A DNA stretch of 34,242 nt, taken from NCBI GenBank assembly GCA_021816425.1, contig JAKAXT010000012.1, positions 1-34,242 on the forward strand, written 5' to 3'. Below the pieces are notes generated by a model. It searched no databases. It saw only the letters and a program-made list of their open reading frames with translations, and was not told the DNA's origin. A program made the translations under genes and the position numbers. Below are positions 6,744 through 18,299 of the stretch, one piece after another; the stretch's first letter is position 1, and every line of letters starts with the position of its first letter. Source of the stretch: Pseudomonadota bacterium. GTDB lineage: Bacteria > Pseudomonadota > Gammaproteobacteria > Acidiferrobacterales > Acidiferrobacteraceae.

Positions 6744-7046
6744 ATGAAAATATGGATACCACTCATGCTCTGCGCGGAAAGCCCGGCGGCGATGGCCATC
6801 ATGCGTCTGCCGGGATACGCGCAGGGGTCCGATCTGCGCATAACGATAGAGGAGCGGGCGCACGCGATAACGGACGTCATTGCGCTCGTGGTAAGCATCC
6901 TGGCGATCATAGGGATTCTGATCGGCGCGGGCTATTTCGCGATAGGCCAGGGCGAGCGAGGCAAGAGCTATGTCGTGGGCAGCGTCCTGGGGCTCGTCCT
7001 TGCGGCGAGCGCCTATGGAATCGCGGCCCTGGTGGTCGGCGCGTGA
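6744..7046 (+). CDS. VirB2/TrbC-like pilin candidate of a type IV secretion-like cluster
   Basis: This small 100-residue protein has a hydrophobic N-terminus (residues 3-26) that could act as an export signal ending near GYAQG. Two transmembrane helices follow at about 45-67 and 77-98, separated by a short polar loop GQGERGKS. Size, two-helix topology and first position in the operon match VirB2/TrbC pilins, which form the conjugative pilus or channel lining. The start at 6744 is fixed by a GGAGG seven bases upstream; an earlier in-frame start at 6717 lacks one. The stop overlaps the next gene by one base. Sequence identity to known pilins is not obvious by eye, so the call rests mainly on topology and context. 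Confidence 0.6.
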   Translation: MKIWIPLMLCAESPAAMAIMRLPGYAQGSDLRITIEERAHAITDVIALVVSILAIIGILIGAGYFAIGQGERGKSYVVGSVLGLVLAASAYGIAALVVGA

Positions 7047-7312
7047 TGGCGTTCAACAAGCGTCTGGCACCCCCGAGAATCATGGGGTTGCCCCTTGGCG
7101 CGGCGATCGCGGGGCTTGTGACCCTTACGGGGGCGCTCGCCTCGGTGGTCTTGCCGAGTCCCGGAGGGCCGGTCGCGGTGATCGCGGCGATAGCCGCGCT
7201 CCCTTTCGGGATTGCGGCCGCGCTCGTCGGCGACGACGTCGCGTTCGCCCGTGTCTATTGGCTTTCGAGGCGTGAGCGGCGTATCGCCGCACGGGAGGGG
7301 CTATGGCCTTAG
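7046..7312 (+). CDS. VirB3/TraL-like small membrane protein
   Basis: The 88-residue protein has a short cytoplasmic N-terminus (KRLAPPRIMG), two transmembrane helices at about 15-35 and 42-61 with a tight LPSPGGP turn, and a basic cytoplasmic tail. VirB3 proteins are this size and topology and sit directly before VirB4, as here. In known systems VirB3 partners with VirB4 at the inner membrane. The ATG at 7046 overlaps the stop of the preceding gene (TGATG), and its 3' end overlaps the next gene by ten bases. The family call is by size, helices and position, not by a diagnostic motif. Confidence 0.6.
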   Translation: MAFNKRLAPPRIMGLPLGAAIAGLVTLTGALASVVLPSPGGPVAVIAAIAALPFGIAAALVGDDVAFARVYWLSRRERRIAAREGLWP

Positions 7313-9615
7313 GGGCGCGACGCTATTGCGATGTGTATACGTGGTCACACGGCCTGAGCGAGAGCGTGGTCGCTCATGGTGACGGCGCCGCGTCGCTCGC
7401 CATCCTCTGGAACGGCCTCGATGGGGAGTTCGAGGATCGCGCCGGGCGCAGTCGCGAGTGGGCCGCCATAGAGAGGGTCCTCGATCGCCTTCCGGAGCAG
7501 TACTGGCTCGAGTTTCACCTGTGGCGCGAGCGCCGCGCCGACGCGGCGAGGGATTATCTCGCGCATTATGAGCAGGCAACGCGCAAGAGCCCATTCGCCG
7601 CGACCATGCGCCAGGCGATCGCCGAGCATCTGGCCCCCCATTTCCTCGTGAACGTCGTGGCGCTCATCGTCGGGCGTCTGCCAAGAATGGAAGCCGGCGT
7701 GCGACGGGCCCTGAACGGGCAGGCGCGCCGCGCAAAGGAGCTGGAGGCCCTGGCAGCGGAGCTTGCATCGCTCTTGCCGGGCGGCCGGATCGCGACGGTC
7801 CACGAATACGCCGGCCTCGTGCAGAGAAGCTACGACAAGGGTCCCGCGCTCGCGGCCTTCGATCCATGGCTGTCGCTCGCCGAACAGCTGGTGGTCGTGC
7901 CCCCGAGGCCCCAGAGACGCGCCTTGGACGTGGATGGGCGGGTCGTCCGCATGCACTACCTGCATCTCTATCCCGAGGTCGACTCCGCGTGGATTCTCCC
8001 GAGCGTTTCGGGCTCGATCAGCCTGCACGTCTCCCAGGTCGTCATGCCGGCCACGACGGAGCGGGCGCTTCGGGCCTCGGAGCGCGCCGACAGGCTCGCG
8101 CAGGGGGGCCTTGCAAACAAGGGCCGGGAGCGGCAACTGGCGGCGCTGAAGGAGATGCAGCATTTCCGGCAGGAGGTGGCCGACCATGACTGGCGGGTGC
8201 ACCGCAACGCCTACATGGTGTGCGCGGAAATAGAAAACGTGCCAGCGGCGGCGCTCACGCAGCTCATCGAGGGTTTGCAGGGCCGGGGCGGGCGCGTGCG
8301 AGATGACGACTTCGTGCAGCTTCCCTTCTTCCGGGTATCCCAGCCCGGGCAGGGCTACCGCGCGCCGATCTGGCGGCCGGATCACGCCGCGTTGATAGCG
8401 GCCATGGCCCCGACGCAGGTGTTCCGTGCCGGTTCGCCGCACCCCGAGTCCCTGCGATTGGGGCTTGCCTCCCAGCCGCTCCACTTCGATTACAGCCATC
8501 AGGTCGTGGCGCACGGCTTTACGGTGGCCATGACCGGCGCCGGCAAGGGGGTCGACAAGGTGGCGACCATGATAGAGACCTATCCCTTCGGGGTGGACTG
8601 GTATGTCCTGGAGATCGGGTCGACTTACCGCTGGGCCGTGGAGGCGCTCGGGGGCCGCTATACGAGGATCGATCCGGGCACATGCGCGGTGAACCCCCTG
8701 CCGCGGCGGGCCCCGGGAGCCGCGGGCCTCGATCCGCTGCTCGCATCGGGCACGTTGAACATCCTGGCCTTCATCCTCACAGACGGGCGCACGCTTCTCG
8801 ATTTCCACGAGCAGGCCGCGGGCGCGGCGGCCCTTACGCGGCTCTACGGAACCGACGCGCCCACCGATCCAGGGCTCGCGGACTTCCTCGTCTCCCTTGA
8901 GGAACTGACGGACGTAAGCCCGGAACAGCGGCAGGCCGCGCACGTCATGGCGGCCAACCTGCACAGCTTTCTCGAGACGCCCGAGGGGCGGATATTCGCG
9001 GGCCCGGACAACGTTCATCTAAGCCCCGGCATCAGCGGAGTGGATCTCAGGGACGTGGACAGGGCGAGCCCGAAATTGCTCACCTTCTATCTCGTGTTCC
9101 TCTGCCTGCGCTTCCTGAATCTCGCCTTCGCCAACAGAAACCAGGCCCGTGTCCTGCTCGACGAGATCCACCGATTCGTGGCCCACGCCCCGGGGGTCTT
9201 GTCGCGTCTCGTGTCGGAGATCGCGCGCATGGGGCGCAAGGAGGCCGCGGCGGTCGATATCGTGACCCAAGGCCTCGCCGAAATCGATCTCATGGAAAAG
9301 GAGATCGTGAACTCGATGCCGCTGCGGTCCCTTCTCTACCGCAACGACGGCTGGGAGGAGATCGCCGCCCGCATCGGGATGCCGGAGAGGGCGCTCCAGC
9401 TGTGGAGGCGCCTGCCGTTCCCTTTGAATCTGCCCTGGCGCCCCGCGATTCGGTCCGTGGGCCCCGAGTACTACGGTTTGCGCCTGACCTTCCCGCGCAT
9501 GGTCCTGGCCCTTGCCGATACGACACCCGAGGGGCTTGCACGCAAGGAACGGCTGGGCGCGGAGTCTTCCGACCCGCTTGCGCGCCTTGCCCGATATCTG
9601 GAGGAGCGGCCATGA
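7303..9615 (+). CDS. VirB4/TraC-like secretion ATPase with degenerate P-loop
   Basis: The 770-residue protein has the VirB4 plan: an N-terminal half with the CagE/TrbE-like region (about 1-380), then a RecA-like ATPase. After the P-loop the order Y-V-L-E-I-G-S-T-Y-R, EALGGRY, RIDPG, NPLP matches VirB4/TraC proteins closely. A Walker B VLLDEIHRF places D620 and E621, followed by a RKEAAAVDIVTQGL segment. The P-loop itself reads A-M-T-G-A-G-K415-G: the lysine is kept but the usual final Ser/Thr is Gly416 and the first Gly is Ala409. VirB4 ATPases energise pilus and channel assembly at the inner membrane. The ATG at 7303 has a GGAGGGG unusually close (two bases). The gene overlaps its neighbours by ten and four bases. 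Confidence 0.85.
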   Translation: MALGARRYCDVYTWSHGLSESVVAHGDGAASLAILWNGLDGEFEDRAGRSREWAAIERVLDRLPEQYWLEFHLWRERRADAARDYLAHYEQATRKSPFAATMRQAIAEHLAPHFLVNVVALIVGRLPRMEAGVRRALNGQARRAKELEALAAELASLLPGGRIATVHEYAGLVQRSYDKGPALAAFDPWLSLAEQLVVVPPRPQRRALDVDGRVVRMHYLHLYPEVDSAWILPSVSGSISLHVSQVVMPATTERALRASERADRLAQGGLANKGRERQLAALKEMQHFRQEVADHDWRVHRNAYMVCAEIENVPAAALTQLIEGLQGRGGRVRDDDFVQLPFFRVSQPGQGYRAPIWRPDHAALIAAMAPTQVFRAGSPHPESLRLGLASQPLHFDYSHQVVAHGFTVAMTGAGKGVDKVATMIETYPFGVDWYVLEIGSTYRWAVEALGGRYTRIDPGTCAVNPLPRRAPGAAGLDPLLASGTLNILAFILTDGRTLLDFHEQAAGAAALTRLYGTDAPTDPGLADFLVSLEELTDVSPEQRQAAHVMAANLHSFLETPEGRIFAGPDNVHLSPGISGVDLRDVDRASPKLLTFYLVFLCLRFLNLAFANRNQARVLLDEIHRFVAHAPGVLSRLVSEIARMGRKEAAAVDIVTQGLAEIDLMEKEIVNSMPLRSLLYRNDGWEEIAARIGMPERALQLWRRLPFPLNLPWRPAIRSVGPEYYGLRLTFPRMVLALADTTPEGLARKERLGAESSDPLARLARYLEERP

Positions 9616-10238
9616 CGCGGCTTGGCGCAGCGGCGCTTTTGTGGCTGGGCGCGATCGCGCCGGCGTGGGCGTTCCTCGGCGTGGGCGACGTCACGTTCGA
9701 TCCGCCGGTGCATGCGGAGCTCGTCAGCCTCCTCGATCAGACGCTCGCGATCTATCGCACCGCCTTGCGGGAGGTCCGCAGGCTCCAGACGGTCGAGTCG
9801 ACGCTGCGCGAGGCCAATCGGGACGCGCGCGTCATCGCGAACGGGGATCTCGCGCGTTACGAGGAGCAAGGCCTGCCCGCGGGCCTGCCGCGGGGCCTGA
9901 AGTCGCTGCTCGCCCGCACCGGCGCGGCATCGGACAACGCCAGCGCGTATGGCGGCTATCTGCGCCAGCAGGCGCGGCGCTTCGGGCGGCTTGCGCGCCT
10001 GCGTTGGTTGAGGCGCGGCGTGAGGCGCGACGCGCGGCTCTCGGCCACGAGCCTCGGGGTCCGTACGAGCGGCGAGGTCACCGCCCGCTCGACCGCGACG
10101 CTCGCGGGCCTGGCCGCAAGGCGGGCCCGGTCCCGCGAACGGCGCGCCATACGCCACGCCGCCGAGCGGCGCAACGCCCGGCGCCTGCCGCGGGAGGCGG
10201 CGTCCTTGTATCGCGCCTTTGGGGGCGGCCATGAATAG
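9612..10238 (+). CDS. VirB5/TrbJ-like exported protein candidate
   Basis: This 208-residue protein has a clear signal peptide (residues 1-20, ending PAWA before FLG). The mature N-terminus is GVGDVTFDPPVHAELVS, then a helical segment LLDQTLAIYRTALREVRRLQ. TrbJ/VirB5 proteins likewise begin with a short D-P-containing segment and continue as long alpha-helices in the periplasm, where they act as minor pilus components. The C-terminal third is extremely Arg/Ala-rich. Position between VirB4 and the polytopic VirB6-like protein is where VirB5 is normally found. It overlaps the previous gene by four bases (ATGA) and the next by eight. The assignment is by context and general pattern. Confidence 0.55.
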   Translation: MTRLGAAALLWLGAIAPAWAFLGVGDVTFDPPVHAELVSLLDQTLAIYRTALREVRRLQTVESTLREANRDARVIANGDLARYEEQGLPAGLPRGLKSLLARTGAASDNASAYGGYLRQQARRFGRLARLRWLRRGVRRDARLSATSLGVRTSGEVTARSTATLAGLAARRARSRERRAIRHAAERRNARRLPREAASLYRAFGGGHE

Positions 10239-11319
10239 CGCCTCGCTCGTCGTTCATCTCCTGGGCCACTTGGCGCCCGGCGGTGTATATCGTGCCGCCG
10301 CGCCCGTGGCGGGCGTCCTGATGCGTACCGTGACGCCGTCACTGTTCGTGGTGGCCCTGTACACGCGGCTCCTCGAGGCGCAGATGGATTCCGTGTCGGG
10401 CTTCGGGCAGCTCGCCCACGTCATCCGCGACATCGTCGTCTGGGGCGTCGTCCTGGTGGCCTATTTCGCGCTCGGCGGCCTTCTGAATCACTACCTGAAC
10501 GCCTTGTACGTGGCCATGGGTCGCATAGGGTCGCTGCGCTCGGTGGCCACGCAGATGGCGGCCTTGCTCGACGTCGCGGCCAAAGGCCCGAGCGGTGTGT
10601 GGAGCACGATAAAGGAGATCAATGCCCTGCCGTTACGCTTCGCGACGGTGCTCATCTACTACGCCACCTTGATCATGACGACCTTCCTCCAGGCCCTGCT
10701 GCGCATTGCCCAGGCGATAGGCTATGAGTTCGCCTTCCTCTACGGGCTCATCGCCCTACCGCTCGCCCTTAGCAGGACGCTGTCGCTCGCGCGCGGTTTC
10801 GCGAAGCTTATGGGCTTCTTCATCCTTTGGCCCATCGTGCAGGCGCTGTTGCTGGCCGTGTTCTCGCCCCTCTTCACCCACGCGGTGGCCGATCTCCAAA
10901 AGCTTATCGGTCCCGCCGATTACATGACCGTGTACGCGCACATGCTGTTTACCATCCTGAACCTCATCCTGTGCGCCGTCCTGCTCGCCGCTCCCTACAT
11001 AACGGCAGGCCTCATAGAGAACGCGGGCGCCGCCCAGCCCCTGCTCGCCCCCGCCCTGGCCGGACTTTCGTCGGTCGGGACGACGTTCGCGGCGGGCGTC
11101 GGTCACGGGACCGCGCGGGCGGTCGACTACTACTTGTACGGCCCGGACGATGACGTCCTCTCCGTGCCCCCGAGGCCCATGCCCGAACTGCACGTGCCGC
11201 GCGACCCGGACTTCATCCCGAGTGGACAGGACGGCGGTGCGCCGCACACGAACTACCTGAAGCCTCAATACGACGGGCCCCCGAAAAAAGATCAATCCGA
11301 TGACTTCTCCAGACGCTAA
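10231..11319 (+). CDS. VirB6/TrbL-like polytopic membrane protein
   Basis: The 362-residue protein has about six hydrophobic helices in two groups: residues roughly 70-92 and 135-160 in the first half, then a cluster from about 165 to 275. A hydrophilic, Pro-rich C-terminal tail (about 300-362) follows. VirB6/TrbL/TraG-N family proteins have this topology and form the inner-membrane part of the channel. The ATG at 10231 was preferred over an upstream TTG at 10219 because it follows a GGGGGCGG stretch. It overlaps the previous gene by eight bases and the next by twenty. No diagnostic motif is visible, as is usual for this poorly conserved family; gene order carries most of the weight. Confidence 0.6.
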   Translation: MNSASLVVHLLGHLAPGGVYRAAAPVAGVLMRTVTPSLFVVALYTRLLEAQMDSVSGFGQLAHVIRDIVVWGVVLVAYFALGGLLNHYLNALYVAMGRIGSLRSVATQMAALLDVAAKGPSGVWSTIKEINALPLRFATVLIYYATLIMTTFLQALLRIAQAIGYEFAFLYGLIALPLALSRTLSLARGFAKLMGFFILWPIVQALLLAVFSPLFTHAVADLQKLIGPADYMTVYAHMLFTILNLILCAVLLAAPYITAGLIENAGAAQPLLAPALAGLSSVGTTFAAGVGHGTARAVDYYLYGPDDDVLSVPPRPMPELHVPRDPDFIPSGQDGGAPHTNYLKPQYDGPPKKDQSDDFSRR

Positions 11320-11926
11320 GGTGTGGGGCCGCCATGGGCCCCAAGGGCTTCTGATGCAGCGCCTGGCGCGCTACGCGCTGCTGGGTTGGGGGCTGTTCGC
11401 CTGCGCCGCCGCAGCCTTCGTGGTGCTTGCGATCGTGGCCGTGTGGCGCACGCCGCCCATCATCGCCGTCGACCGCTCCGGCACCGTTCTCGGGCGCATG
11501 CAATGGCTTGACGCCGCGCACAGGTCGCGGCGCGACGTGATCGCGGCCTCGATGCGTTTTCTGCGCGATTATCTGAGCGCCAACGCCCCGACCGTGGTCC
11601 CGGACTACATCGAGGCTCTGGACATGATGGCGCCCGCGCTCAGAAGCACGACCGTGGCGGCGCTTCGCAAGACCGCCTATCTCGCGCGCGTCCGCGCGGC
11701 GGGCATACGCTCCTGGGTGAGCTTCGCCGAGGGTCGCCGCCGGCCGCGCGTGGTCCGCAAGGGCGCGCGGGAATTCCTGGTGCGCCTGGAGGGAACCCTC
11801 CATGTCGTCGTGCGGACCGGGCGGCAGTACCGCGAGCGCTTCGCGTATTTGCTGACGGCGATCGCCGTGGCGCGTCGTCCGCACGACACAGCCGGCCTAC
11901 GCATCGAAGGAATCGACCCGCTATGA
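11300..11926 (+). CDS. VirB8/TrbF-like bitopic protein candidate
   Basis: This 208-residue protein has a short cytoplasmic N-terminus and one transmembrane helix at about 23-48, immediately followed by a periplasmic segment TPPIIAVDRSGTV. The rest is a mixed alpha/beta domain (about 60-208). Single N-terminal helix, periplasmic globular domain and position between VirB6 and VirB9 candidates fit VirB8/TrbF/TraE, a scaffold of the inner-membrane complex. TraE-like proteins also have a conserved region just after the helix. It overlaps the previous gene by twenty bases and the next by four. Identification is by topology and order. Confidence 0.55.
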   Translation: MTSPDAKVWGRHGPQGLLMQRLARYALLGWGLFACAAAAFVVLAIVAVWRTPPIIAVDRSGTVLGRMQWLDAAHRSRRDVIAASMRFLRDYLSANAPTVVPDYIEALDMMAPALRSTTVAALRKTAYLARVRAAGIRSWVSFAEGRRRPRVVRKGAREFLVRLEGTLHVVVRTGRQYRERFAYLLTAIAVARRPHDTAGLRIEGIDPL

Positions 11927-12678
11927 CCGCCCCCATGCCGACTTTGCTGCGGCCGCTTGCGCCCCACGCCCGCGTGGTGGTCTTGCGGCCCTACCGCGCA
12001 TTGTCCGCCGCCATCGTGCCCGACCTCGGGCTGCGGCTCGTCTTCCCAAGCGGCGCGCCGGCGGCCCGCTTCGCGCTCACCAACCCCCTGTTCTCCGCCG
12101 CGAGATTGGGCCGGCGCGCCATCCTGATCACCGTGGCGCGCGGCATGGCCCGGCGTTACTGCGGGAACGCGTACATGGATTGGGAAGGATATTTCGTCTC
12201 GCTGCTCGTTTGCACGAGCGCCCACGGACGGCATTACACGAGCGACATCCTCTTTCGGCGCCCGAGCGTCCCCAGGCCCCCGGTCGCGGTGCGTCCCAGA
12301 CCGCGTTCCCCGTGGGCCGCGGCGTGGGCCTACGCGGCCTTCGGGCCCGTTCCCCGGATCGCGATCCGCAAGCGCGTCGCCTTGAAGCGGGGCGCGAGGA
12401 CCGTGGTCCTCTCGGTGCGGCGCATGTTGCTCATGCCGCGTACCGCGGTCCTCGGCTTCGCGCTCGCCGGGGACGCGGGGCCCGGCCCCGTCGATGGCGC
12501 GATCCTCTACCGCGGCCGCGGCAAATGGCGGGAGGTGCCGACGATGCTGAGCTGCAGGGCAAGCGCCGCCGCCGGGGGCGTCGCCTGCGCGCTCTCCCTG
12601 GCGCCCCCCAAGGACCCCGTAAGGCGCTGGCATCTCGTCGTCATGACCGCGCTTGGGGCGGCGCGCCTGTCATGGTGA
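11923..12678 (+). CDS. VirB9/TraK-like protein candidate without evident signal peptide
   Basis: The 251-residue protein is beta-rich: ARVVVLRPYRALSAAIV near the N-terminus, LRLVFPS, AILITVARG and HYTSDILF in the first half, a Pro/Arg-rich linker around 108-125, and a second beta domain (about 130-251). VirB9/TraK proteins have two beta domains joined by a linker and work in the outer-membrane core complex beside VirB10. Unlike them, this product shows no hydrophobic signal peptide from the annotated ATG, which is fixed by the ATGA overlap with the previous gene. Either export is atypical or the family call is wrong. It overlaps the VirB10 candidate by seven bases. Confidence 0.45.
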   Translation: MTAPMPTLLRPLAPHARVVVLRPYRALSAAIVPDLGLRLVFPSGAPAARFALTNPLFSAARLGRRAILITVARGMARRYCGNAYMDWEGYFVSLLVCTSAHGRHYTSDILFRRPSVPRPPVAVRPRPRSPWAAAWAYAAFGPVPRIAIRKRVALKRGARTVVLSVRRMLLMPRTAVLGFALAGDAGPGPVDGAILYRGRGKWREVPTMLSCRASAAAGGVACALSLAPPKDPVRRWHLVVMTALGAARLSW

Positions 12679-13394
12679 CCGCGGCCGTGCGAGCCCCCAC
12701 CGTCATCGTGCACCGCCTCATAGACGAGCGGCCGGCGCCACCGTCCCTGTTCCATCGCCTTCTGGCGCTGGCCGGGGGTCCGGCGCGTCGCCCGCGGCGG
12801 CCGAACCCTCCGCCCCGGCCGCGCGCGGCCCTGCCGTTTGCCGTGGCCGCATCGCGCGCGCGGCCCGTGATATTGCCCAACCCGCCGCATGGCCTGGGCA
12901 TCCGGGCCGGCACGTGGGTCGCAGTCACGCTGCGCCGCGGCGTCACCGATGTCGATTCGACCCTGGTCGTTTTGCATGTGGGGGCGCCTGTGCGCGGCCT
13001 CTGGGGCGTCCTGCCGGCCGGCACGCGGCTTTTGGGGCGGGTGGAGGGTCAGGCCCTCGGGCGGATCCGCATCGCCGTAAGTCAGGCGGTCACGCCGCGC
13101 GGGCGGCGCCTGCCCTTCGACGCGGCGGTCTTTGGGGCCGACCGGGGGCCCGGGCTGCCCGCCTACGTCGTGGGCGGGCGGCGCAGGACGGTCCTGGCCG
13201 CGTTCGCCTCATCGGTGGTGGAGGGTGTCGATGCGCTCATGGGGTCGGCCGCGGCGCAGGGCTCGGCCGAGGCCGCGGCCCTGGGGCAGGTGGGTACGAA
13301 CACGTTGAACGCGGCGGCCGTTTGGCGCGCCCCGCGCCGGATTCTTTACGCCCCGGCGCAGCAAGGTTACGTCCAGACACAAAAGGGATCGTGA
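12672..13394 (+). CDS. VirB10/TrbI-like protein, C-terminal domain only
   Basis: The 240-residue protein shows a recognisable VirB10 C-terminal fold pattern: RAGTWVAVTLRRGVTD (78-93), LPAGTRLLGRVEG (114-126), RIRIAVSQAVTPRGRRLPF (131-149) and FGADRGPGLPAYV. These correspond to the TrbI/VirB10 segments around 'iPqGtrLiGey' and 'vsWnRlifPdG'. In known systems VirB10 spans from inner to outer membrane through an N-terminal helix and a Pro-rich stalk. Here the first 75 residues are basic and Pro-rich (40-52) but contain no transmembrane helix or signal peptide, so the anchor is missing. The ATG at 12672 overlaps the VirB9-like stop; a longer open frame upstream runs antiparallel in composition to the VirB9 gene and is rejected. 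Confidence 0.7.
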   Translation: MVTAAVRAPTVIVHRLIDERPAPPSLFHRLLALAGGPARRPRRPNPPPRPRAALPFAVAASRARPVILPNPPHGLGIRAGTWVAVTLRRGVTDVDSTLVVLHVGAPVRGLWGVLPAGTRLLGRVEGQALGRIRIAVSQAVTPRGRRLPFDAAVFGADRGPGLPAYVVGGRRRTVLAAFASSVVEGVDALMGSAAAQGSAEAAALGQVGTNTLNAAAVWRAPRRILYAPAQQGYVQTQKGS

Positions 13395-13396
13395 TC

Positions 13397-13951
13397 ATGA
13401 AAACATGGGTAAGGAGGGTGTGGCTTGCCGCGGCCCTGGGCCTTGCGCCCACCTGCGGCGCGTGGCGCCTGTCGGTGGGCGGCGGCCTTTTGGCGGGCAT
13501 CGTGCCGGCGCCATCGCCCGCGGCGACCGCCCTCGGGTGGCAGTTTGCGGGCCAGTGGACGCGCGAGGGCTATGTCGGGCAGCGGTGGCTGGTCGACCTG
13601 ACGGCGGGCCAATTCGCGACGCGGCCCGGGGCGGGCGGCCTGCTGGAGCGGGGGCGCGAGCTGGGCGGGCTCGTCTTGTGGGAGCGGAGGGTCCCGTTCA
13701 GCTACGCGTTTCGGCCTTGGGTGGGGGTGGGCGCCGGCGTCACGCACTACCGGTTCGATGACCGACTGCGCCTGAACGCCAATGGCTACGCGGTGGGCAC
13801 GAGCCCCGACGACTCGGAAAACGATGCGGATCTCGGTATCGGCGCGAACATCCCTTTGGGTCGGTCATGGTCCATCGGGATCACGGCGCAAACCGGCTTC
13901 CCATCGCACCTGTCGACGTTTGGCGTAACTGTTCTATGGAGGCTATTTTGA
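13397..13951 (+). CDS. Small outer-membrane beta-barrel protein in the secretion-like operon
   Basis: This 184-residue protein has a signal peptide (residues 1-22, ending CGA) and alternating hydrophobic beta strands such as LSVGGGLLAGI, FRPWVGVGAGVTHYRF and FGVTVLWRLF. The terminal Phe and preceding Trp/Leu fit the BAM assembly signal for outer-membrane barrels. An 8-strand barrel is likely from the length. The start at 13397 has AAGGG nine bases upstream; a GTG at 13391 is also possible. It begins two bases after the VirB10-like gene and its stop overlaps the lipoprotein gene, placing it in the same operon. Its function is unknown; an outer-membrane partner or anchor for the VirB9/B10-like proteins is an inference. 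Confidence 0.65.
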   Translation: MKTWVRRVWLAAALGLAPTCGAWRLSVGGGLLAGIVPAPSPAATALGWQFAGQWTREGYVGQRWLVDLTAGQFATRPGAGGLLERGRELGGLVLWERRVPFSYAFRPWVGVGAGVTHYRFDDRLRLNANGYAVGTSPDDSENDADLGIGANIPLGRSWSIGITAQTGFPSHLSTFGVTVLWRLF

Positions 13952-15366
13952 ACAAGAGACATCACGGTCTATGGATTTTCGTCGCGGGGCTTGCATTGAG
14001 CGGATGCCGACTGGGGAACCCGGCTTCGCCTCCCGCGCTCCCGCCCGGACAGATCGACGGGTACGTGGTGAGCGGGGGGCCCGTGGCCGGGGCGTCGGTC
14101 ACCGTCACCGGTGCGGGCGGCACCTTGGGCGCCACGCGCACGGACGACAGCGGACACTTCGCGCTCGATGTCCAGAGTCTGGACGCGACGCTCGAGGTCA
14201 CGGCGAGCGGCGGCTCCTATGTCGGCGCAGGCGGGACCAACGCCACGTCCGGCGTGTTGCGCGGGGTCTTCCCCTATCAAAACGGCGGCGCAGTCCAGGT
14301 GGCGGTGGACCCGTTGACCACGGCGATGGCCGCCTATGACGGTTATCTCCAGGGCCAGGGGGTCGACCTGAACGACGCCGCGGTGCGCGCACGCGCCGCC
14401 TTCGTCGATTGGCTCGGCTTCGATCCGACGACGACGCAGCCCGTGATGCCGGCGGACGCCGGGACCGGGACTGCGCTCACGAGCGGCCTGCGCCACGGGC
14501 TTGTGGTCGCCGCCTTGACGCGGTTTGCGCGCGAAAACGGGAGCCGTACCGGCACCATCGCGGGGCTCATGGCATCCGACCTCGCCTTCGACGGGATCCT
14601 AGACGGCGTGGGCGCAAGCGGGCCTCTGAAGCTCGGCGCCCTGCCCTTGTCGACGGCGGCGTATCGGCAGGGGATCGCCCAGGCCTTCCTGCAGGCGGCC
14701 GCGGCCGCGGCGCCCGCCTCGCCCGACGCCCTTCCGGGGCCGAATGCGGCGGCGCTCCTCGCCTACGCGCAGACGCTCGCCCAATCCCCCTCGCCCCTGT
14801 TCGGGACCGGGCCCGCGCCGGCGTTCCCGGGCGGCGGCCTTTCCTTGTCTCTGTCGCCATGGGCCGCGTGGACGCACGGGCCGATCACGATCGCGGGCAC
14901 GACGAGCGATCCCTATGGGCTTCCGGTGGCGGTGACGATCGCCATCGATCACACGCCCTACCAGACGGTTACGGCCGCGCCCGCTTTCGCGTTTCTGATC
15001 GACACGAGTGCGTTCGCCGACGGCACCCATGACCTGTCCGTGAGCGCCCACGATGCGGCCGGGGAGAGCGCCTCCTACGACGGGTCGCTCGGCGTCGACA
15101 ACACGCCGCCGCAGGCCTGCCTGTCCGTCTTCCAGCCGACCATGCAGGGCATCATGCTCGCGGGAAAGTGGCAGGACCTCTCGGGGGTGGTCGCGGCAAG
15201 CGCCGACGGGGTCGCGCTTTCCCTCTTCTCCGCGGGCACCTGGGAGGGCGTGGTGCCGACGCCGTTGCCGTCGCCCACGACGGTCACCTTCGTGGATGCC
15301 GCCGGCAACGAGCAGAATTATTCGTGGGTATTGGACGGCCAGACCAATCCCGCGCCCTGCTCGTGA
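13948..15366 (+). CDS. Lipoprotein with carboxypeptidase-regulatory-like and Ig-like domains
   Basis: The 472-residue product begins at TTG 13948, which has GGAGG five bases upstream and overlaps the previous stop by four bases (TTGA). A lipoprotein signal ends in LSGC with C20 as the lipidated residue; Arg at +2 suggests outer-membrane sorting. Next is a carboxypeptidase-regulatory-like beta-sandwich (about 25-80, GQIDGYVVSGGPVAGASVTV), a middle alpha-helical region (about 100-290), and one or two Ig-like beta-sandwiches (about 300-465) with a VDNTPP linker. Two cysteines near the C-terminus (in QACLSVF and at the end, PAPCS) may pair. Such domain sets are typical of surface-exposed adhesin or scaffold proteins. 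Being last in the secretion-like operon, it may replace the VirB7 lipoprotein or act as a surface substrate. Confidence 0.7.
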   Translation: MNKRHHGLWIFVAGLALSGCRLGNPASPPALPPGQIDGYVVSGGPVAGASVTVTGAGGTLGATRTDDSGHFALDVQSLDATLEVTASGGSYVGAGGTNATSGVLRGVFPYQNGGAVQVAVDPLTTAMAAYDGYLQGQGVDLNDAAVRARAAFVDWLGFDPTTTQPVMPADAGTGTALTSGLRHGLVVAALTRFARENGSRTGTIAGLMASDLAFDGILDGVGASGPLKLGALPLSTAAYRQGIAQAFLQAAAAAAPASPDALPGPNAAALLAYAQTLAQSPSPLFGTGPAPAFPGGGLSLSLSPWAAWTHGPITIAGTTSDPYGLPVAVTIAIDHTPYQTVTAAPAFAFLIDTSAFADGTHDLSVSAHDAAGESASYDGSLGVDNTPPQACLSVFQPTMQGIMLAGKWQDLSGVVAASADGVALSLFSAGTWEGVVPTPLPSPTTVTFVDAAGNEQNYSWVLDGQTNPAPCS

Positions 15367-15405: not shown

Positions 15406-15414
15406 CAGTGCCAT

Positions 15415-15434
15415 GCCCGACAAGGACGTCGGGC
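15415..15434 (+). other. Hairpin between the lipoprotein and ligase genes
   Basis: GCCCGAC and GTCGGGC flank a six-base loop. If the promoter just upstream is real, the hairpin lies at the very 5' end of the transcript, 16 bases before the AAGGA ribosome site. No T-run follows, so termination of the upstream operon is possible but not typical. Confidence 0.4.
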
Positions 15435-15464
15435 CGTGGCCCTCAAGTCAAGGATGAATTCGAT

Positions 15465-16643
15465 ATGGAAACCCTCGCGATCCCGCTCCCCGCCAATCTC
15501 CCGCCGGATGTGTGCGCGGAGATATCGAAGCGTGCGTGCTATTGCGACACCGCTATCCTGAAGTCGCGCTACCGCCAGGACTCGAACTGTCTCGAGATCG
15601 ACCTGCAAGGCACGGGCGCCGGTGGTGATGTCGCCGCCAAGCTCGAACACCTGATCGGAAAGATGCAGGGCGAACGCCTGGCCGTGACGCCGCGCGTCCT
15701 GCGCGACCGCTCGCGCGACCCGGACGGTTTCGTGCCCACCGCCTACGAGCAACTCGCGGCGCGCGGCCACGTGTGGGCGGCCGGCCCGGGCGTGGTTGGC
15801 CGCGGCGGCGCGTTCATGCGGCTTTTGGGCCGGCTCGATGGCGCCATAGAACGGCTCGCGGTGCGCGAGTTCCAGGCCACCCCGCAGTCCTATAACTCGC
15901 TCGTCCCGAGCGACTGGTTGCGTCGCGCGGGCTACTTCGGTTCGTTTTCGCATTCCGTCACCTTCGCGGTCCATCTGAGGGAGGACTTCGAGGCGATCGA
16001 ACGCTTCGGCAGGCGCCATCGCCAGGGGGAGAACCCCACGTTCGAGGAGGCAGGCGAGCTCGCGCCCCCGGAACATTGCCTGTCGCCCGCCGTGTGCTAC
16101 CACACCTACGGCGCGCTCATGGGGCAGCATCTTTCCGCGGGGGCGGCGTCGGCCTTCACCGGCCACGGGCGATGCTTCCGGTACGAGTCGAAGAACCTCA
16201 AAGGCCTCGATCGGCTCTGGGAGTTTTCCATGCGCGAGATCGTGTGGCTCGGTGACAGCGAGGCGGTGCTCGGTGCGCGGGAGCGGGCCATCGACGCGGC
16301 ATGGAGGCTCGTCGAGCTCCTCGACCTGTCGGCGCGCCTCGAGACGGCCTGCGATCCGTTCTTCGCGAGCGATTTCCCGTCGCTGCGATTCTTCCAGCTC
16401 GCCAACGACTTGAAGTATGAGCTGAAGATCGACGTCGCGCCGGGCGAATCGATCGCCTGCGCGTCGTTCAATTATCACGAGCGGTTTTTCGGGACCCGAT
16501 TCGAGATCACCGCGGACCGCGGCGAGGCCGCCCATACCGGGTGCGCGGCCTTCGGCCTCGAGCGCCTGTTGTACGCGTGTTATTGCCAGCACGGTCTCGA
16601 GCGCGCCGAGGCGCTGGTCGAGAACGCGGCCGCCCGTCTTTAG
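15465..16643 (+). CDS. Amino acid:[carrier protein] ligase homologue (SerRS-like class II core)
   Basis: The 392-residue protein resembles the class II synthetase-like enzymes that activate an amino acid with ATP and load it on the phosphopantetheine arm of a carrier protein instead of a tRNA (described from Bradyrhizobium and Agrobacterium). Motif 2 is GRCFRYESKNLKGLDRLWEFSMREIV (split at 236-240 and 241-260) and motif 3 is GLERLLYAC. Candidate zinc ligands C211 (AVCYHTY), E258 (MREI) and C360 (HTGCAAFG) have nearly the same spacing as the known Cys-Glu-Cys set. About 100 extra N-terminal residues precede the core. There is no tRNA-binding coiled coil. ATG 15465 has AAGGA ten bases upstream. 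No carrier-protein gene is adjacent, which is unusual for this family. Confidence 0.85.
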   Translation: METLAIPLPANLPPDVCAEISKRACYCDTAILKSRYRQDSNCLEIDLQGTGAGGDVAAKLEHLIGKMQGERLAVTPRVLRDRSRDPDGFVPTAYEQLAARGHVWAAGPGVVGRGGAFMRLLGRLDGAIERLAVREFQATPQSYNSLVPSDWLRRAGYFGSFSHSVTFAVHLREDFEAIERFGRRHRQGENPTFEEAGELAPPEHCLSPAVCYHTYGALMGQHLSAGAASAFTGHGRCFRYESKNLKGLDRLWEFSMREIVWLGDSEAVLGARERAIDAAWRLVELLDLSARLETACDPFFASDFPSLRFFQLANDLKYELKIDVAPGESIACASFNYHERFFGTRFEITADRGEAAHTGCAAFGLERLLYACYCQHGLERAEALVENAAARL

Positions 16644-16722
16644 GCGGCCCCTTGGAGTCTTCGCGAGTTATCGTCTTTGACTGGAGGAGCGGGTCCGACG
16701 CAAGCCGGCCCGAGCGACGGTG

Positions 16723-17724
16723 ATGAATATTCAGCCCATGGAATTGTTTGACGAGGTTGTGAATCCCGACCTGGACGAAGTGAGCGCCCTCATGCGGGCG
16801 AACTGGACGCCGCCTTGCTGGCTCTACGAGCCGGACCTTTTGGCCATGCACATCATGAGGCCCACCGCGGACCCGTCGATGGCGGTGGGCCTGCGCGCGA
16901 AGAGCGGCGAACTGGCCTCCTATCTCGCGTTCGTGCCCCTGCGCCTGCGCATCCACGGCCGCATCTACAAGGCCGTGTTTGCGAGCTTTTTCACGGTTTC
17001 CGGCCACTACCGGCGTCATCGCCTGAGCGATCGCCAGCAGGGGCTCATGGTGGATCGCGCGCGCGATCGCGGTTATGAGGTGTACGCGGCGGTCACCGTC
17101 GCCGGGACGCCGGCCAACCAGACCGTGGCGCGGGCGTTCGGGGCGCGCGGCCTGCCGGTGCGCGCCGCGTACAATTTCCGTTACCTCGCGGGGGCCCGGG
17201 CGATCGTGGCGACCCGTCTGGGCGCCGGCGCCGCAGGAAATGTGCGGCCTTACGCGCCAAGCGACGAGGACGTCGCGTTCGCGCTGCTGTCGGAGGCCGC
17301 GGCCTGCGCGCCGCTTGCGCAGGTGGTGGAGCGCGAGGACGTCGACTTCTCTCTGCGCGGCCGGCCGCGGATCAAGACCTACGTCTACGAGAGCGAGGCC
17401 GGCGTCCAGGCCCTCATGAGCGTCTCCTTGCTGCCGGTGCTGTCGGGGCGGGTCGGTCTGAACGCTTATGTGGAGGCGCTCGCGCTCGGGCGCCTGGAGC
17501 CCGCGGCGCGCATGGCCTTCGTCGACGCGGTGCTGCGTTCGGTGCTCCTGGAAGGGGCCGAGGCGATCATGGTGCCGGACACGGGCCGCGCTGATCTCGC
17601 GGTGTTCAGGCGCCTGGGCTTTCGGGCCGCCCCACGGAAGCTTCGGCTTCTGCTCGCCCCCTTGCGCACGGACGTGACCGACCTTCCGGAGACGGTGGAT
17701 GGGTTCTGCCTCGACGTGTTCTGA
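16723..17724 (+). CDS. GNAT-superfamily-like N-acyltransferase
   Basis: The 333-residue protein has two GNAT-like halves. The first contains VGLRAKSGELASYLAFVPL, then ASFFTVSGHYRRHRLSDRQQ, where an acetyl-CoA pyrophosphate loop would normally be (Q/R-x-x-G-x-G/A is not strict here), and RARDRGYEVYAAVT. The second half ends with AFVDAVLRSVLLEGAEAIMVPDTGRADLAVFRRLGF, a typical GNAT beta-alpha C-terminal end. Proteins of this size and layout often transfer amino acids or long acyl groups from a carrier. It follows the carrier-protein ligase by 79 bases and precedes the hexapeptide transferase by two, so a shared pathway is likely. The start ATG 16723 is chosen over GTG 16720; neither has a strong ribosome site. 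The substrate is unknown. Confidence 0.65.
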   Translation: MNIQPMELFDEVVNPDLDEVSALMRANWTPPCWLYEPDLLAMHIMRPTADPSMAVGLRAKSGELASYLAFVPLRLRIHGRIYKAVFASFFTVSGHYRRHRLSDRQQGLMVDRARDRGYEVYAAVTVAGTPANQTVARAFGARGLPVRAAYNFRYLAGARAIVATRLGAGAAGNVRPYAPSDEDVAFALLSEAAACAPLAQVVEREDVDFSLRGRPRIKTYVYESEAGVQALMSVSLLPVLSGRVGLNAYVEALALGRLEPAARMAFVDAVLRSVLLEGAEAIMVPDTGRADLAVFRRLGFRAAPRKLRLLLAPLRTDVTDLPETVDGFCLDVF

Positions 17725-17726
17725 GC

Positions 17727-18299
17727 ATGGCGACGGGTTTTAGGGAGACCGTGCGGGTCCTGCTCGCGGGCCTCGGGACCGTGATCGCGCTGCCGGCTTT
17801 GGTCATCGCCGACTGGGGCCGCCTGGACGAGGGTTTCATCCTGGGCGGCCAGGCCCTCGCCCTGGTGCCGGGGGTCATAGGCGATGCCGCGCGCGCCGCC
17901 TTCTATGCGCGCACGCTCGCGCTCTTCGAACCGGGCGCGGCGGTACGCTTCGGGAGTTATTTTTCGAAACGCGGCGCGCGCGTCCATGCGGGCGCCGGGA
18001 TAGGGGCCTATTGCGTCATAGGCCTGGCCGACTTAGGGCCGCGCGTGCGGATCGCAAGCCGCGTGTCCATCACTTCGGGTCTTCATTATCACGGCAGCGC
18101 CGCCCGCGGCGTGGAGGATCGGGACGTGGTCGAGCGGGTGACCATAGGCGCCAACACCTGGATCGGGGAGGGGGCGGTCATCGGCGCCGACGTAGGCGCC
18201 AACTGCATCGTCGGCATGGGGTCGGTCGTCATTCAGCCGGTTCCGGACGGGTCCACGGTCATGGGCAATCCGGCCCGGCGCATCCCCACGGCCGCCTGA
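17727..18299 (+). CDS. Hexapeptide-repeat (left-handed beta-helix) acyltransferase
   Basis: The 190-residue protein has an N-terminal part with a hydrophobic helix (about 8-28). Hexapeptide repeats then run from about residue 70 to 180, with turns such as ARVHAGAGIGAYCVIGLADLG, VTIGANTWIGEGAVIGADVG and NCIVGMGSVVI. It ends VMGNPARRIP, the usual C-terminus of acetyl/acyltransferases of the WcaF/NodL/CysE type. The His in GLHYHGSA is a candidate catalytic base. These enzymes O- or N-acylate sugars or small molecules using acyl-CoA or acyl-ACP. Two bases separate it from the GNAT-like gene. The exact substrate cannot be read from the sequence. Confidence 0.75.
   Translation: MATGFRETVRVLLAGLGTVIALPALVIADWGRLDEGFILGGQALALVPGVIGDAARAAFYARTLALFEPGAAVRFGSYFSKRGARVHAGAGIGAYCVIGLADLGPRVRIASRVSITSGLHYHGSAARGVEDRDVVERVTIGANTWIGEGAVIGADVGANCIVGMGSVVIQPVPDGSTVMGNPARRIPTAA

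Follow-up and report, generated by a model that had tools for sequence, protein, structure and literature searches.

We examined a 34,242-nucleotide stretch of Acidiferrobacteraceae DNA (contig JAKAXT010000012.1, hereafter the window), which is the complete contig C119 of a 2.3-Mb assembly (G000), 89% complete, from a family of acid-loving iron/sulfur bacteria. Between positions 6744 and 15366, its plus strand carries ten genes, each overlapping or abutting the next, that encode a highly diverged VirB-type type IV secretion system (T4SS), a small outer-membrane beta-barrel protein and a lipoprotein with immunoglobulin (Ig)-like domains. A second conserved locus, unlinked to this block, codes for a VirD4-like ATPase and a MobA/MobL relaxase. 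We give an even chance to the interpretation that the two loci together form a domesticated conjugation-type machine, which exports or transfers chromosomal DNA. A more far-reaching version, in which chromosomal conjugation is a core, vertically inherited trait of the genus, in which ComEC is undetected, with a fixed two-locus machine in every cell and the chromosome itself as the cargo, is possible, and we advance it tentatively. No description of the block was found in the literature searched.

Single-sequence family scans recognized B2 (as TrbC), B4 (as TraC) and, weakly, B10, and no other products, and we therefore made use of homologue alignments, of profile-profile comparison of all ten block families with R388, R46 and F proteins, and of predicted folds. 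These comparisons identify B2, B4, B5, B9 and B10 (Table 1). All 17 B4 homologues match the TraC-F-type family (best 3e-23; window protein 5.6e-12) and 10 of them also match VirB4_CagE, with TraC ranked first in the profile-profile comparison. TrbI is matched by 10 of 18 B10 homologues (2.4e-9), and the B10 profile matches the VirB10 domain of CagY at 4.8e-5 and VirB10 in the profile-profile comparison with P 81. B9, for which there was no sequence-level match, was placed by its AlphaFold2 model (predicted local distance difference test score, 81), the top PDB matches of which are TrwF/VirB9, a chain of the F outer-membrane core complex, an X. citri T4SS chain and a Dot/Icm chain (E 1.2e-8 to 6e-7), with VIA Z of 12.1-9.6 for the T4SS chains as against 7.0 for the unrelated rows beneath them. 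PDB searches with sequence profiles of B4, B8 and B9 found nothing. Position and weak best matches suggest the assignments of B3, B6 and B8: TraL and VirB3 are the top two profile-profile matches of B3, VirB3 in second place, but at about 1% probability, weaker than those of B6 and B8; one B3 homologue matches VirB3 weakly (E 0.23), and the B8 homologue in L044 matches the VirB8 Pfam family at E 0.015. A VirB4-family ATPase, a VirB9/VirB10 outer-membrane core and a VirB2 pilin are all present, as in T4SSs, and the gene order is that of R388 (B2-B3-B4-B5-B6-B8-B9-B10) without B7 and B11.

Table 1. Genes of the T4SS block (window coordinates) and of the unlinked relaxase/ATPase locus (contig C86 of the same assembly).
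Feature	Length (aa)	Position	Strand	Evidence or remarks
VirB2-like pilin	100	6744..7046	+	TrbC/VirB2 Pfam E 1.4e-5, under curated cut-off; 10/16 homologues match
VirB3-like small membrane protein	88	7046..7312	+	Position before VirB4; weak matches
VirB4/TraC-type ATPase	770	7303..9615	+	TraC and VirB4_CagE matches; P-loop motifs
VirB5-like secreted protein	208	9612..10238	+	Signal peptide-like N-terminus; best profile-profile match VirB5 of R388/R46, P 80, E 1.4e-5
VirB6-like polytopic membrane protein	362	10231..11319	+	Position; best profile-profile match VirB6, weak (P 5)
VirB8-like bitopic protein	208	11300..11926	+	Best profile-profile match VirB8, 185 columns, weak (P 5.6)
VirB9/TraK-like protein	251	11923..12678	+	Fold comparison of predicted structure
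VirB10/TrbI-like protein, shortened N-terminus	240	12672..13394	+	TrbI, CagY and VirB10 matches
Small outer-membrane beta-barrel protein	184	13397..13951	+	OMP_b-brl weak match, E 0.019; terminal aromatic residue
Lipoprotein	472	13948..15366	+	Carboxypeptidase-regulatory-like and bacterial Ig-like domains; lipobox; Big_13 E 4.9e-6
MobA/MobL relaxase		G000:C86 ~8077-8886	-	PF03389 type; short
VirD4-like ATPase		G000:C86 ~8918-10534	+	PF10412 type

Relatives of B4 were found in all 14 genomes of the genus and in 17 of the 18 family genomes sampled; outside the family they occur in two sister-family genomes and have a patchy distribution in other Gammaproteobacteria. The system is rare, since no members besides the window came to light when 398 Pseudomonadota genomes were scanned with a threshold of E 1e-20. 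In nearly every family locus the block sits downstream of bioC, and B4 divergence tracks that of this neighboring housekeeping gene (r=0.96, 16 loci); the ratio of nonsynonymous to synonymous substitution rates (dN/dS) is 0.03-0.24 across all ten genes, indicating purifying selection. Given the shared site, the selection and the correlated divergence, the block is a vertically inherited chromosomal trait, which was evidently fixed in the chromosome no later than in the common ancestor of two sampled genera of the family. The block is also far from a chance arrangement, because it recurs gene for gene in relatives with every gene under such constraint. No integrase was found among the scanned genes flanking the block, the site of which is conserved and lies between housekeeping genes.

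The barrel and the lipoprotein are integral to the block and travel with it: they come after B10 in nearly all family loci, as well as on a plasmid of Candidatus Tenderia electrophaga described below, and the lipoprotein is the final gene in every family locus read to its end. The barrel start was refined to ATG 13397. For the lipoprotein, the most likely start is TTG 13948, which lies five bases past GGAGG, overlaps the barrel stop codon and yields a lipobox signal peptide like that of the relatives, with an invariant lipobox Cys; the predicted structure of the lipoprotein matches Ig domains of the adhesin SiiE and others. In a 476-residue version of the model, residues 38-223 have as their best match the non-heme domain of PgcA (9i0d; Z 12.0 over 138 residues, 3.1 A), a match that was absent from the sequence-profile search and involves a stretch modeled in part at low confidence, and which we record as a lead in an iron-oxidizer lineage. 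On L042, an AbiEii-type toxin gene and a neighboring gene (15998-17613) occupy the place expected for the barrel and lipoprotein.

The constant terminal position of the lipoprotein in the family loci read to their ends could also be accommodated by two-step export, in which a substrate exported by Sec, which might be the Ig lipoprotein itself, leaves the periplasm via the VirB9/B10 channel, as in Ptl and pertussis toxin or IncHI1 and RSP. We consider such an exporter improbable: Lol is the usual route of lipoproteins to the outer membrane, and neither a conserved VirD4-like ATPase nor a relaxase elsewhere in the genome would be needed for it. It is not without precedent, as VirD4-less systems are capable of export (PMC12857230), and RSP, an Ig-like protein, is exported by a plasmid T4SS via a periplasmic intermediate (PMC6764697).

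The sequence-only reading of this stretch had described a ten-gene overlapping block in VirB order, taking it for a divergent chromosomal T4SS that ends in a barrel and a multi-domain lipoprotein, and had proposed a survey of related genomes; the coordinates, the recurrence of the block in the relatives surveyed and the constant company of its last two genes all agree with that description. Among its conjectural family calls, B9 is now established by fold and B2 and B5 are better supported through profiles, with B3 and B8 still weak at the sequence level. It also found no relaxase, coupling ATPase, VirB11, lytic transglycosylase or integrase, and indeed we identified none of them in the block or in the window flanks scanned, which on the downstream side extend to about 18300. 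A search for VirB11 gave family matches below the cut-off, mostly at the level of generic pilus/secretion ATPases. As regards the relaxase and VirD4, the statement holds for the block and its scanned surroundings but fails for the genome as a whole, and the view that there is no coupling protein was dropped. Searches with c31, the coupling protein of the plasmid-type relatives considered below, and with PF02534 had missed or barely touched the ATPase, and PF10412 gave weak but genus-wide matches.

With PF10412, all 14 genomes of the genus, and G014 as well, gave a frame of some 550 residues that aligned to one and the same section of the profile. We read nine of these loci, namely that of the window's own genome and those of eight relatives, and each of the nine contains a VirD4-like ATPase (E 2e-9 to 4e-12 where scanned) with a divergently transcribed MobA/MobL relaxase a short distance away (PF03389, E 4e-22 and 7e-32 where scanned). 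The flanks are conserved in order and include mpl (by inspection), a DsbA-like protein, a thiamine pyrophosphate enzyme, an AsmA-family protein and others. All nine relaxases retain the Tyr and the H..D..N.H.H motif; the ATPase has a dN/dS of 0.15-0.19, and its divergence correlates with that of B4 (r=0.96). The pair and the block lie on different contigs in the window genome (C86 and C119), and in the single-contig genome G005 the block is at 0.35 Mb and the pair at 3.34 Mb, i.e. about 406 kb apart if the contig is circular. Relaxase and type IV coupling protein (T4CP) are not linked to the T4SS here, as they would be in a conjugative element; the genome does contain both, as a conjugative system should, and we infer their partnership with the block from co-conservation and complementarity.

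A block homologous gene for gene occurs on Candidatus Tenderia electrophaga plasmid CP013100.1 and on related contigs, with barrel and lipoprotein included in L029, L040 and L041. In this plasmid-type group the coupling protein c31, with a canonical P-loop and a TraG-D_C-like match at E 0.012, is encoded directly upstream of B2 together with ParB-type genes, and in L028 the TrwB_AAD_bind match (2e-8) is to another frame, located two genes upstream. Two sister-family genomes have a c31 relative that forms a module with c29 and c32 and is not linked to the block, and the window's family yielded no full c31 match. No relaxase family was detected among the Tenderia plasmid proteins scanned; PLSDB nonetheless types the plasmid as MOBP. 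One genome, G078, harbors two differing block copies with the coupling protein (L040 and L041).

We favor a machine split between two sites because the block lacks a coupling protein and a relaxase and the pair lacks a channel, each locus being single, syntenic, old and under selection; the T4CP linked to the homologous block in plasmid-type relatives supports the same reading. Together with the genomic pair, that linked T4CP weakens the earlier suggestion of a non-conjugative machine. If the two loci do cooperate, the relaxase would nick the chromosome at a site that is probably close to the relaxase gene itself, and would remain bound to the strand; the VirD4-like ATPase would pass the relaxase-DNA complex to the VirB4-powered channel; and the DNA would leave either into a contacting cell, in a manner resembling high-frequency recombination (Hfr) transfer, or into the medium. 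A role for the barrel and the Ig lipoprotein may be to shape the exit across the outer membrane and to hold on to partner cells or to surfaces, and Ig-like proteins aiding mating are known from IncHI plasmids (PMC6764697). The cargo would be the chromosome itself, since no integrase, partition or replication genes are attached. A short stretch between the relaxase and T4CP genes, approximately TCTCCCGATAAA followed by GCCTAACA or near variants, recurs in most genomes and could be an origin of transfer (oriT) or merely a promoter.

Several observations weigh against a joint machine. The relaxase evolves faster than its neighbor (dN/dS 0.32-0.44), falling to about 50% identity where B4 retains 81%. 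The ATPase is nearest to T4CPs of small plasmids (48.6% identity to Aquicella), and shares only about 26% identity with the coupling protein encoded beside related blocks, and it may therefore serve another machine. The pair was undetected in the block-bearing genomes G016 and G017, although the profile is near its limit there, and in G015, the sole block-negative genome of the family, neither the pair nor its flanks were found in the 1.14 of 2.6 Mb (44%) that were read. Folding of the DNA between the relaxase and T4CP genes gave no significant structure, and no oriT structure was demonstrated. Finally, B4 lacks the P-loop Ser/Thr: its motif is the non-canonical GKG, with Gly (once Asp) as the replacement in 25 of 26 homologues, plasmid forms included (GKD in L042, GKS in L044), as compared with GKT in F, R388 and R46. 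Since the plasmid forms share it, GKG is probably a working variant.

The absence of a T4CP and a relaxase from the block is also what would be expected of a pilus or contact structure on the cell surface that serves to attach to minerals or cells, translocates nothing and has no relation to the pair. Retention of VirB2 and VirB5 equivalents and the adhesin-like Ig domains of the lipoprotein are in line with this, and Bartonella Trw is known to mediate adhesion without TrwB (PMC2883598). Such a role is nevertheless unlikely in our estimation, as a T4CP is kept elsewhere in every genome of the genus, and as the pilin, in contrast to the amplified and variable Trw pilins, is single-copy and the most constrained gene of the block (dN/dS 0.03-0.06).

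Alternatively, the loci may be unrelated, the pair being an old mobilization module that makes use of other conjugative elements and the block having a separate function. The layout of T4CP and divergent relaxase is the same as in small plasmids, and MOBF conjugative elements are present in many genomes of the family. Yet no MOBF relaxase was found in eight block-bearing genomes (G000, G002, G003, G004, G007, G008, G009 and G017), which is a further reason to prefer the split machine, and in the window genome we found no PF03135 VirB4, no TrwC and no PF03432 relaxase. Moreover, a mobile remnant would not be expected to stay syntenic and under purifying selection throughout the genus, and we regard an unrelated module as distinctly improbable.

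Uptake of DNA, which the sequence-only reading had also suggested, would call for a machine like Helicobacter ComB. A VirB set without VirB11 or a linked VirD4 is indeed found in ComB (PMC12857230), which on the other hand lacks the VirB5 present here and needs the inner-membrane channel ComEC. The latter (PF03772) was undetected in all 15 family and sister-family genomes, a single-contig genome among them, with 10 of 14 controls positive. Uptake is therefore disfavored, and we rate it as very improbable; conjugation would be left as a more important route of exchange.

Upstream of the block, positions 1-2575 of the window hold a row of genes for a secretin, an AAA_22 ATPase and a tetratricopeptide repeat protein, reminiscent of the MshL/MshM/MshN genes of a type IV pilus operon and kept upstream in relatives. 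On its other side, positions 15408-18299 encode, likewise on the plus strand, a class II tRNA-synthetase-like protein, a further protein and a hexapeptide transferase, which are kept in much of the genus. Between bioC and B2, the relatives L024, L025, L030, L031 and L045 have a frame that on inspection resembles a GNAT acetyltransferase, and none was found in the window. Neither a match to a sigma-70-type promoter in the block region nor an Rfam match anywhere in the window was obtained.

Genes for conjugation tend to be mobile and to serve themselves. A T4SS that is split, together with its relaxase and coupling protein, over two housekeeping sites and kept intact by selection throughout a genus would, if our interpretation is true, mean DNA transfer owned by the lineage, a standing means of genetic exchange and not a parasite. 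Pfam fails to recognize most of the subunits, and similar systems have probably been overlooked. In a lineage seemingly devoid of the usual competence channel, the way in which DNA is exchanged becomes directly testable.

Comparison with known T4SSs shows that the block resembles the R388 Trw and IncN systems of mating-pair formation type T (MPF_T) in gene order, in the TrwF-like fold of VirB9 and in its VirB5 and VirB10 profile matches. It differs from them in that no VirB7, VirB11 or VirB1 was found within the block, B4 is nearer to F-type TraC, a barrel and a lipoprotein are added, and the relaxase and T4CP are far from a chromosomal, vertically inherited block. In the comparison with F, no block protein matched TraN, TraU, TraW or TraH. 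Its homologues are the T4SS of the Candidatus Tenderia plasmid and those of related contigs (L040, L041 and L068, as well as L042, which has no barrel or lipoprotein), distinguished by the coupling protein and ParB-type genes linked to them immediately upstream and, for the Tenderia copy, by being plasmid-borne. The gonococcal genetic island, a single linked element of the F type, is likewise a chromosomal T4SS, the relaxase and coupling protein of which are also chromosomal, as opposed to the two unlinked loci in housekeeping contexts described here; it secretes single-stranded DNA (PMC4207684). T4SSs without VirD4 include Ptl, Brucella VirB, ComB and Bartonella Trw (PMC12857230), and Bartonella Trw, Bordetella Ptl and Helicobacter ComB share with our block a VirB set without a linked VirD4. 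This likeness holds only if the unlinked pair is ignored: here a VirD4-like gene is present elsewhere, the pilin is not amplified, ComEC is undetected, and there are an extra barrel and lipoprotein. The closest counterparts of the pair are small plasmids of Aquicella and Xanthomonas, with T4CPs 40-49% identical and the same divergent relaxase/T4CP layout, in contrast to which the pair described here is chromosomally fixed and syntenic, with a short relaxase of the MobA/MobL type.

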